64,000 bases of DNA from positions 1-64,000 of the forward strand of contig NZ_VIKW01000081.1 in assembly GCF_009711975.1 (NCBI RefSeq), read 5' to 3'. Shown one piece after another: positions 9,974 to 64,000 of this stretch. Each line of letters opens with the position of its first letter. Position 1 is the stretch's first letter. The stretch comes from Anabaena sp. UHCC 0204. Lineage in GTDB: Bacteria > Cyanobacteriota > Cyanobacteriia > Cyanobacteriales > Nostocaceae. Position numbers and translations under genes: made by a program. The notes below the pieces were generated by a model, which saw only the letters and a program-made list of their open reading frames with translations, was not told where the DNA came from and searched no databases.

Positions 9974-10028
9974 CTGAGACTCTGCGCCTCTGCGTGAGGT
10001 AAAATCATATTCTTACTCAGCAACACCC
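9974..10028. repeat. Interspersed repeat, copy A
   Basis: The core ACTCTGCGCCTCTGCGTGA is followed by TAAAATCATATTCTTACTC and AGCAACACC. Copy B at 42261-42316 matches over nearly the whole length, and shorter copies occur at 33522-33552, 39360-39390 and 39597-39642. It is non-coding here. Confidence 0.75.
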
Positions 10029-61264: not shown

Positions 61265-61603
61265 TTACTTCTTCCAGTCTTTATCAGCTTGTTCTAGTAC
61301 ATAAGCAGCTACATCTTCAGCCTGGGATAATTTTAAACGGCCTTGAAAAGCAGGCATAGCATTTTTACCATTAGTAACTTGGGCAATAATAGCTTCTGCT
61401 GAGTACATACCGTATTTTTCCAAATCTGCTTTTTTCAGGCTTTTGGCAGCATTAACTAAATTTCTGCCACCCGCATGACAAGAAGCACAATTAGCACTAA
61501 ATATTTTAGCTCCACTGGCTGCGTCTGCGGCCAAAGCGGGACTACTGAAGGCAAAGGTGAAGATAGCTACGCTTAACAGTAATACTGAGATAATTCTTTT
61601 CAT
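61265..61603 (-). CDS. petJ: Cytochrome c6
   Basis: A 112-residue thylakoid-lumen electron carrier between the cytochrome b6f complex and photosystem I. It has a Sec signal peptide cleaved after SSPALA, the heme motif CASCH, the axial Met in [11 protein letters not shown] and the C-terminal helix [11 protein letters not shown]. Length is normal. In many cyanobacteria it is induced by copper shortage in place of plastocyanin. The TPR gene follows downstream. Confidence 0.95.
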
Positions 61604-62109: not shown

Positions 62110-62907
62110 ATGTATATTTACTCACATGGTGAAATGACAAATTTTACAAAAGTGAACGTCTGGGAAGAAGAAATTCAACAAAATATTGCTAATAATTTCT
62201 CCGAATCATCTTTAACATTTCTCTCTCACCAGTTTAAGCGTGATGGGTTTCTTAAAGTTCCTCAAATCATGCCTCTCCAGATCCGTCAAGAAATGAAACA
62301 AGAGGCTCTAAGATTGTTAGAATTGCACTCTGAACGACGTGATTTAAAACTAGCAACAACGGGAAATACTCCCAGAAATATGAGTGTAGTAACCAGCGAA
62401 AACATTGCTGAAAGCAGTGAATTTGTTAATACTATCTATAGATCCGAAGCACTGAAAAATATACTAGAAAAATTGGCTGGTGAACCTTTCTTAGCTTGTC
62501 CATCAAAAGATGAAGAATTTTTGATTACCAGACATGAAAAAAGCGGAGATACCCACGGTTGGCACTGGGGAGATTATCGTTATGCGCTAATTTGGATTTT
62601 AGAAACTCCACCTATCGAACATGGTGGAATGTTGCAATGTGTTCCTCATACCAGTTGGGATAAAACTAATCCAAGAATTCATGAGTATCTGTGTGAGAAT
62701 CCTATCAGCACCTATGGTTTTGTTACTAGTGACATTTACTTGTTGAAGTCAGATACAACTCTTCATCGAACAGTTCCCTTAAATCGTGATTCTACACGCA
62801 TTATGCTCAATATGACTTGGGGATGTCTTGATGATCAGAAAAGAAATCTCAATGAGAATGATCGTTGGTGGGCAGAGAAAGAAGTAGTAGCTGGTAATTA
62901 CAGCTAA
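62110..62907 (+). CDS. Fe(II)/2-oxoglutarate enzyme, BesD/HalD-type halogenase candidate
   Basis: A 265-residue cytoplasmic enzyme with the double-stranded beta-helix fold. The metal site reads THGWHWGDY: His152-Trp-Gly154, where hydroxylases of the same fold have His-x-Asp. The distal ligand is His219 (TTLHRTVPL), followed 11 residues later by Arg230, which would bind 2-oxoglutarate. A Gly in place of the carboxylate is the mark of radical halogenases (WelO5, BesD), leaving room for chloride. The overall sequence resembles the free-lysine halogenases of the BesD family. The substrate is not proven. Met1 at 62110 has no good ribosome-binding site; Met9 (62134) is an alternative. The next gene is a BesC-like oxidase 127 bp downstream. 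Confidence 0.75.
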   Translation: MYIYSHGEMTNFTKVNVWEEEIQQNIANNFSESSLTFLSHQFKRDGFLKVPQIMPLQIRQEMKQEALRLLELHSERRDLKLATTGNTPRNMSVVTSENIAESSEFVNTIYRSEALKNILEKLAGEPFLACPSKDEEFLITRHEKSGDTHGWHWGDYRYALIWILETPPIEHGGMLQCVPHTSWDKTNPRIHEYLCENPISTYGFVTSDIYLLKSDTTLHRTVPLNRDSTRIMLNMTWGCLDDQKRNLNENDRWWAEKEVVAGNYS

Positions 62908-63034
62908 ATTTTAGCTGTGTCAGCATGAGATTTGATATTTTTTAAACATCACCTGTCAAAATGTTAGAAAATTGCCAAAAAGCAATGCAAACATCTTCTC
63001 AAAAATGTAATCTATCTGTGTAGGAGAACCGAAA

Positions 63035-63778
63035 ATGACAGCTTTACAAGTACAAGAATTTGAGAAAATCCAAGATCCAAATGTTCGTCAACGCTTAGAT
63101 GTTGATGGCCCAGAGATCAAAGACTATTTGAACGGGAAGATGGAGTATATTCTCAATCACCGCGCAGTCCAACATCCTCTGCTCAATTACTATCGCAAAA
63201 ACGCATTTACTAAAGAACAAGAAAAGAAATTCTACCTGGAAACTTGGTATTACTTTAAAAACGAACCTTTCTATATTACGAGTATGGCAGTAAATACTCG
63301 TGATTATAAAGTATTGAAGGAAATTATCCTCAATGTTTATGATGAAGTGGCTGGAAAAGTAACCCATGAAACTTTGTTTCGTGAACAACTGAATGCTATG
63401 GGGATTACTGATGAAGAAATTGCTAATCATCAATGTTTGCCTAGCACTACAGCTATTAATAAAGGTGCAGAAAAACTTTATTGTGAACCCCCAATTGAAA
63501 GAAACTTAGGGGCGTTCTATGCTGATGAAACTATGTCAGCAGTATTGTCAACTCAATTCAATGATGCCTTGCTGAATCAAGGATATGACAAGAACGTGAG
63601 AAAGCATTGGATAATGCACGTAAATGTAGAAATTAGCCATAGCAATAATGCTTTTAATGCGATCGCACCCTATTTGGTTAATCAAGAGGGACGAGACTTA
63701 TTTGAAGAAGGCATCAATACATATCTACAACTATTGGAAACCTATTGGGACGGCGTTGATGCCATTGTCAGAGGATAA
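63035..63778 (+). CDS. Heme-oxygenase-like diiron oxidase, BesC-like
   Basis: A 247-residue helical enzyme of the heme-oxygenase-like diiron oxidase (HDO) superfamily. All six expected iron ligands appear with the right spacing: Glu104 and His111 (DEVAGKVTHET), Glu165 (YADETMS), and His195, Glu199, His202 (MHVNVEISH). BesC, in the Streptomyces beta-ethynylserine pathway, uses this fold to cleave 4-chlorolysine to an alkene amino acid, directly after the halogenase BesD. The pairing here with a His-x-Gly enzyme is therefore suggestive. Other HDO activities (UndA-type decarboxylation, N-oxygenation, CADD-type chemistry) remain possible. AGGAG lies 9 bp before the ATG. Confidence 0.8.
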   Translation: MTALQVQEFEKIQDPNVRQRLDVDGPEIKDYLNGKMEYILNHRAVQHPLLNYYRKNAFTKEQEKKFYLETWYYFKNEPFYITSMAVNTRDYKVLKEIILNVYDEVAGKVTHETLFREQLNAMGITDEEIANHQCLPSTTAINKGAEKLYCEPPIERNLGAFYADETMSAVLSTQFNDALLNQGYDKNVRKHWIMHVNVEISHSNNAFNAIAPYLVNQEGRDLFEEGINTYLQLLETYWDGVDAIVRG

Positions 63779-63781
63779 AAA

Positions 63782-63886
63782 ACTAGTACCGCACGGCGTA
63801 AATAAACCAACCATTCTTAATCGCCAAAAAGCTTGCTGAATATTACTTTTGACTTTTGACTTCCGCCTTGCGATACTAGTACCGCA
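63782..63886. repeat. 12-bp direct repeat after the HDO gene
   Basis: ACTAGTACCGCA occurs at 63782-63793 and 63875-63886. The stretch between them has no gene and includes a short TTTTGACTT repeat. Confidence 0.6.
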
Positions 63887-63989
63887 GTGTGGAATTGATA
63901 ATTAAAAATTAAGAAAGCAGATTCTACAAGCTTTTGGTGAAATTTTTAATAGTTGGTTAACGAAGGAAATAAATTTTTTAAACTAATGC

Positions 63990-63996
63990 AGGAGAG
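63990..63996 (+). promoter_or_regulatory. Likely ribosome-binding site of the next gene
   Basis: AGGAGAG followed by ATAA at the window edge. An ATG within the next few bases outside the window would start the third gene of the halogenase/HDO locus. Confidence 0.4.
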
Positions 63997-64000
63997 ATAA

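Follow-up and report, generated by a model that had tools for sequence, protein, structure and literature searches.

Which product is made by a putative lysine halogenase and a diiron oxidase encoded side by side in a cyanobacterium, and does that product keep its chlorine? The question is raised by two genes at positions 62110–63778 of a stretch of 64,000 nucleotides from Anabaena sp. UHCC 0204 (hereafter, the window), which comprises bases 1–64000 of contig C79 (120,966 bases) in a genome of 5.74 Mb. A preliminary description of the window had placed here a BesD-like halogenase beside a BesC-like oxidase, and homology and residues support this. The best overall explanation, which we consider likely, is that these genes belong to a transferable cassette directing the synthesis of a small chlorinated amino acid, with chlorine probably retained in the product. 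In the part of PMC10187165 used here, the BesD–BesC chemistry is described from one Streptomyces pathway, with chlorine as the leaving group for an alkyne.

The first open reading frame (ORF1, plus strand) opens at 62110 and ends at 62907, and the second (ORF2, plus strand) spans 63035–63778, both as first described; they are separated by 127 bases on the same strand, so that the BesC-type gene has an adjacent BesD-type halogenase. As opened at 62110, ORF1 encodes 265 amino acids. Its homologues begin at an ATG equivalent to 62134, just upstream of which Cuspidothrix (L016) has, as read by eye, an in-frame TAG at 10016; hence, the real start is probably 62134, and the gene 62134..62907, with a protein of 257 amino acids. 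Counted from there, the motif is H144-W-G146 with H211; the longer numbering is used below.

ORF1 matches the Pfam family HalD (PF23169) over the whole protein with an E-value of 4.2e-92 (308.1 bits, above the curated cut-off of 26), and is 54% identical to BesD (52% to BesD of Streptomyces (Streptantibioticus) cattleya by tblastn). Among solved structures (phmmer), BesD 6nie is the best match (3.6e-82), followed by the lysine halogenase 9oer (HalA), HalB, the lysine hydroxylase 7jsd, and then HalD; hence, the closest solved relatives are lysine halogenases, and the hydroxylase scores lower. H152, G154, and H219 align without gaps to H, G, and H of 6nie, which confirms the Fe(II)/2-oxoglutarate (Fe/2OG)-fold protein with His152-Trp-Gly154 and His219 of the preliminary description, and places Gly154 at the BesD Gly, inside the metal site. 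The site consists of His-X-Gly and a distal His, with Gly, neither Asp nor Glu, at position 154; we take the counterparts of these three residues to be the metal-site residues of BesD.

Of the 53 rows in the halogenase alignment, 48 come from the 54 relatives retrieved; L025, L048, L054, L033, L034, and L066 are absent because a different reading frame had been picked at these loci. ORF1, BesD, and HalA (9oer) are identical at all 14 checked positions: R89, E135, H149, H152, G154, D155, H219, T221, R230, N234, T236, D251, W253, and W254; all 14 are shared by 20 of the 48 relatives. The positions beyond the six lysine contacts were chosen for their presumed roles. As given in the part of PMC13244439 considered here, BesD contacts lysine by E123, D143, D239, R77, H137, and W241, the Glu and two Asp residues holding its amino group by salt bridges in simulations, and Arg, His, and Trp contacting the carboxylate. 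All six contacts are kept in ORF1 (E135, D155, D251, R89, H149, and W253, at an offset of 12) and, since they are unchanged, lysine itself is the favoured substrate. A HalB- or HalD-type specificity is rejected, as the HalB and HalD rows differ from ORF1 at position 236, and HalD also at 221, in a comparison that ends before positions 251–254, where the HalB and HalD segments stop; the regiochemistry of HalB and HalD is taken here as general background. Judged by its residues, ORF1 is assigned as a BesD-type Fe/2OG halogenase, most likely acting on free lysine.

In the halogenase tree, calculated after removal of the short rows L046, L050, L060, and L065, the seven cyanobacterial rows form one clade (support 100/99) within the BesD clade (100/99); both this tree and the BesC tree carry a long-branch warning, the latter also for the branch leading to the cyanobacteria. 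The structure model of ORF1 (17 sequences; predicted local distance difference test, pLDDT, 77.0) matches HalB, BesD, and HalA first, with template-modelling (TM) scores of 0.78–0.86 and root-mean-square deviation (rmsd) of 2.7–4.9. A different residue is seen in two other cyanobacterial relatives, L013 and L014 (genomes G385 and G213), which have Asp at the halogenase Gly position; because of this replacement, these family members are probably hydroxylases, and no BesC match was found in their genomes.

ORF2 matches BesC (7twa) with an E-value of 1e-72, the next heme-oxygenase-like diiron oxidase (HDO) lying far behind at 2.5e-08, and is 49% identical to BesC. The six diiron ligands E104, H111, E165, H195, E199, and H202 are kept in all 13 aligned rows, BesC 7twa included, so that the 247-residue HDO-fold protein proposed earlier is borne out. 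The model of ORF2 (10 sequences; pLDDT 83.7) matches 7twa best (TM 0.80–0.81/0.89, rmsd 2.0–2.3) and is weak at residues 81–104; helix 3 of BesC is reported to be flexible. By predicted fold and by the E-H-E-H-E-H ligand set, ORF2 is assigned as a BesC-type HDO. The E-values (4.2e-92 for HalD, 3.6e-82 for BesD, and 1e-72 for BesC) exclude a chance resemblance. Compared with Cuspidothrix, Brasilonema, and Kamptonema, the ratio of nonsynonymous to synonymous substitution rates is 0.08–0.14 for ORF1 and 0.07–0.09 for ORF2, and, given these low values, selection keeps both proteins; against Oscillatoria, the ratio is not computable for either gene due to saturated synonymous sites.

The pair lies in a block of five genes. 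Past the window end, where genes are numbered on contig C79 in continuation of the window, follow an EamA exporter (64012–64965, minus strand), an AGAT-type amidinotransferase (65075–66169, plus strand), the GNAT of the cassette (66278–66745, plus strand), and, as the right border, a second GNAT (66809–67300, minus strand), a core gene present in 16/16 genomes of the genus; genes resembling a sigma factor and PriA lie beyond it. The exporter and the amidinotransferase are consistent with the amino-acid chemistry first proposed. The left border is a gene for a cytochrome c-type protein of 112 amino acids (61265..61603, minus strand), named from its own sequence; it is outside the pathway. Between the BesC-type gene and the exporter there is a short dispersed repeat (63775..63962, no strand assigned) that recurs, at 68–90% identity and in either orientation, at 56 other sites of the genome, which account for 56 of the 57 own-genome matches of the locus query (query 1876–2063); the repeat is not thought to be part of the pathway. 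An inverted-repeat element beside the BesC-type gene is rejected, the repeat search of 63700–64000 being empty.

The same block is found in Anabaena UHCC 0187. Over 5.75 kb (61500–67249) the two genomes differ by one mismatch and ten gap columns; the identity starts at the cytochrome c gene, the right edge (67250–68750) fades through 2–12% mismatches, and the flanking pieces are 76–90% identical. In all four cassette-free members of the genus that were read, sigma factor, GNAT, and cytochrome c genes stand in a row, the GNAT and cytochrome c genes being under 300 bases apart in three of them. Given the insertion between cytochrome c and GNAT, and near-identity within diverged flanks, BesD, BesC, EamA, AGAT, and one GNAT moved together, as one block, between the two Anabaena-type genomes, and this block is a recently exchanged cassette. 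Cuspidothrix retains both borders on separate contigs, cytochrome c by BesD and the GNAT pair by AGAT. In the fourth cassette-free relative the gap is about 2.9 kb and holds two genes (L126 3904–6461), by eye an amino-acid ATP-binding cassette (ABC) transporter; a similar transporter is seen near BesD in Cuspidothrix (L016, scanned) and in Kamptonema, which may make this slot a hotspot of exchange. A location of BesC relatives on plasmids is rejected: 72,556 plasmid records yield two matches with E ≤ 1e-20, both from S. cattleya.

Is the pair, then, inherited together with its neighbours? A scan of one genome per species yields 52 halogenase relatives. By neighbourhood clustering, a BesC-like gene stands beside the halogenase in at least 12 of 55 loci, the window included, a count that is a lower bound because of the frames picked wrongly at some loci; these are seven cyanobacteria, one gammaproteobacterial metagenome-assembled genome (MAG), two Marinobacter, and two Pseudomonas. 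The cyanobacteria are the window genome, Anabaena UHCC 0187, Cuspidothrix issatschenkoi, Brasilonema, Kamptonema, a Microcoleaceae MAG, and Oscillatoria, and BesD and BesC are adjacent in 7/7. Among 386 sampled cyanobacterial genomes the halogenase is matched (E ≤ 1e-10) in four, two of them of the Asp type, and BesC in two, the window genome and G072, which its coordinates identify as Anabaena UHCC 0187. An AGAT orthologue (80–100% identical) is present in six of the seven genomes with the pair, the window genome counted, and is missing only in the 3.0 Mb MAG; it is absent from both halogenase-only cyanobacteria searched. In the sample of 386, AGAT is matched (E ≤ 1e-80) in six genomes, at 80% or more only in the two with BesC; the other four relatives are 47–55% identical, the one at 55% being SxtG. 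EamA orthologues (at least 72%) occur in five of the seven. Oscillatoria carries four genes in direct succession on one strand, namely BesD, BesC, a methyltransferase, and AGAT; in Kamptonema, AGAT and BesC share a contig and lie about 10 kb apart. Methyltransferase orthologues are found in three of nine genomes searched, and agmatinase-like ones (at least 79%) in three of 11; both are rejected as core genes, with three genomes each and none in the window genome. Two genomes share a SnoaL-like protein.

Both trees (support 87/73 and 96/92) join Brasilonema to Kamptonema, although the two belong to different families, a pattern suggestive of horizontal transfer within the phylum. Kamptonema and Brasilonema also share large proteins near BesD or AGAT (L092 8184–13861, L093 3806–7629, L091 1017–2537); these have no Pfam match with E ≤ 0.001, and one kind starts with a twin-arginine-like stretch.

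In the beta-ethynylserine (bes) alkyne pathway, BesB is a dechlorinase/desaturase of the pyridoxal phosphate (PLP) enzymes and BesA a glutamate ligase. The BesB model has no match with E ≤ 1e-5 in 7/7 cyanobacterial genomes with the pair, the window genome included; among 14 control genomes, the same model picks up related PLP enzymes in 13, as it does in two proteobacterial genomes with such a pair. Neither BesB nor BesA has a tblastn match in 18 locus stretches, and for BesA the search covered these stretches. With BesB unmatched, an alkyne ending is unlikely; barring removal by an unrelated enzyme, the product probably retains its chlorine. Hence, of the chlorinated, alkenyl, or alkynyl amino acid of the preliminary description, lysine-type halogenase/HDO chemistry is supported and the alkynyl option is not.

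The substrate, the AGAT acceptor, and the product are proposed as follows. Judging from the BesD-identical active site, the halogenase would chlorinate free L-lysine at C4 with Fe(II), 2-oxoglutarate, O2, and chloride, Gly154 leaving room for the halide. The diiron oxidase would, by its homology to BesC and its ligands, remove C6 with its amine from 4-chlorolysine, yielding 4-chloroallylglycine (2-amino-4-chloropent-4-enoate). The AGAT-type enzyme, whose co-inheritance is observed and whose role is conjectural, may then move an amidino group from arginine to a pathway amine, the most plausible acceptor being the alpha-amine of the chloroalkenyl amino acid, either as part of the product or for self-protection, and the EamA protein would export the product. 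The cassette GNAT might, as a guess, protect the producer. The place of AGAT is the weakest step of this mechanism. Tentatively, and with clearly less confidence than we place in the cassette itself, the product could be a chloroallylglycine bearing a guanidino group, an amidinated vinyl-chloride amino acid that would represent a new class of natural products and be exported; the cassette itself could have spread horizontally among cyanobacterial families, in the Anabaena group via recombination at a fixed chromosomal site.

Several observations weigh against the cassette for a chlorinated amino acid. ORF1 and ORF2 score below the NCBIfam equivalog cut-offs for BesD (NF042920, 331.9 vs 450 bits) and BesC (NF042919, 287.1 vs 500 bits), and S. 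cattleya BesD passes the former with 474.4 bits. AGAT and EamA form a divergent pair on a contig other than that of BesD–BesC in Cuspidothrix and Brasilonema; neither Oscillatoria nor the MAG yields an EamA match; and gene order differs among strains. Strains may also differ in their end product, the methyltransferase, agmatinase-like, and SnoaL-like genes being patchy. The halogenase tree places L023 as sister to the cyanobacteria, and the BesC tree joins it to S. cattleya, therefore BesD and BesC need not share one history outside the cyanobacteria. Finally, the AGAT flap, considered below, is unlike those of human AGAT, AmtA, and CyrA.

The separate contigs in Cuspidothrix and Brasilonema also bear on whether AGAT, exporter, and GNAT ride along with the pair at a common insertion site, with BesD–BesC alone yielding chloroallylglycine as a free antimetabolite. 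Outside the two Anabaena-type genomes, the cassette GNAT was seen in Cuspidothrix alone, which fits this as well; however, AGAT accompanies the pair in 6/7 genomes across several families, is adjacent and on the same strand in Oscillatoria, and reaches 80% identity in just two of the 386 sampled genomes, so we regard this alternative as unlikely, if worth keeping in view.

The amidinotransferase itself is 53% identical to human AGAT, and its D198, H247, and C349 align with human D254, H303, and C407; we take these positions to be the catalytic Asp-His-Cys of the AGAT family. Its 300-flap is DQSAM, the same in all five orthologues checked, and differs also from the SxtG and HsvA flaps. The identity of the enzyme with SxtG is rejected, the closest SxtG-type relative being only 55% identical; CyrA was compared by its published flap alone. 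According to the portion of PMC4887976 drawn on here, the flaps are DPNPM in human AGAT, DMHPM in AmtA, and DIFPS in CyrA, human AGAT accepts lysine too, and the flap Met is needed by AmtA for transfer to lysine. An AmtA-type flap Met is retained in the cassette AGAT and, as it is that of the lysine-using enzymes AmtA and human AGAT, an action on the lysine side is possible. The enzyme could then, like AmtA, first make homoarginine from lysine, with halogenase and HDO acting on homoarginine or its chlorinated form and a guanidine-type fragment being released; an agmatinase-family gene accompanying the pair in three of seven genomes fits this order. The unchanged BesD lysine contacts of ORF1, however, favour lysine itself, and the window genome lacks a match to the agmatinase-like gene, which makes a homoarginine route rather improbable.

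Slightly less probable still is cryptic chlorination, in which an unrelated enzyme would remove HCl, and propargylglycine or a further alkyne would be made as in Streptomyces. The S. cattleya pair, which serves an alkyne pathway, has BesB directly downstream, but in the cyanobacteria the BesB model stays silent despite its performance in the controls, and none of the five block genes is a PLP enzyme. The match of ORF1 to 7jsd (1.9e-69), a lysine hydroxylase from the same family, might suggest that activity for ORF1 too; this is very improbable given G154 at the carboxylate position, where L013 and L014 have Asp, and its place within the clade of BesD and HalA.

A cassette predicted to yield a chlorinated amino acid points to a metabolite not yet looked for. 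In open-licence literature nothing was found for lysine halogenase together with cyanobacteria, nor for propargylglycine, cyanobacteria, lysine, and halogenase together; BesC, heme oxygenase-like, and cyanobacteria together lead, as far as the sources extend, only to work on FlcD. A cyanobacterial BesD is not among the content of PMC8407142 in the part available, and BesD and lysine are absent from the main text of the halogenase survey PMC12871659. Anabaena UHCC 0187 is reported, in the relevant part of PMC7232259, to encode no known biosynthetic clusters; it has the same cassette, and small cassettes of this kind escape cluster mining. A cyanobacterial version of bes that seemingly keeps the chlorine, with AGAT as a near-constant partner, predicts chlorinated non-protein amino acids from cyanobacteria, and enzymes of the ORF1/ORF2 type are new candidates for C–H chlorination of free amino acids.

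Among known systems, the halogenases of the HalA (9oer) type from Pseudomonas and Legionella share the 14 residues and the same large clade with ORF1; in contrast, their loci L021 (10775–12742) and L028 (10737–12683) have an SHMT-family PLP protein and a LysE-type exporter beside the halogenase and no BesC-like cluster member. We presume these PLP proteins to be the partners of HalA. The HalD-type loci of Marinobacter and Pseudomonas (L036 9962–13415, also L037, L049, and L056) resemble the cyanobacterial ones in a halogenase by a BesC-like HDO and an EamA protein, but their halogenases belong to another clade with other residues at positions 221, 236, 251, and 253, and L036 has a semialdehyde-dehydrogenase family gene instead of AGAT; this is a second, different halogenase–BesC pathway, perhaps acting on ornithine. 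Nine further Pseudomonas loci (L038–L043, L046, L047, and L063) share a halogenase and a row of genes, in L040 (9944–17208) another heme-oxygenase-like protein, an ATP-grasp ligase, and a sodium/hydrogen-type antiporter, which looks like a further amino-acid or dipeptide pathway. With the AGAT family (human AGAT, AmtA, CyrA, SxtG, HsvA), the cassette enzyme shares the catalytic Asp, His, and Cys, and differs in its flap and its linkage to a halogenase.

The closest known system is the bes cluster of S. cattleya, where a BesD-type halogenase likewise precedes a BesC-type HDO on the same strand (tblastn identities of 52 and 49%), with an EamA-family transporter a few kb away. That region also holds BesB (959.9 bits) and BesA (881.6 bits), and the EamA, AGAT, and GNAT proteins of the window genome have no match with E ≤ 1e-3 in 16.7 kb around S. 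cattleya BesC. With AGAT and GNAT in place of BesB and BesA, the cyanobacterial cassette seems to be a new variant of bes chemistry that keeps the chlorine.

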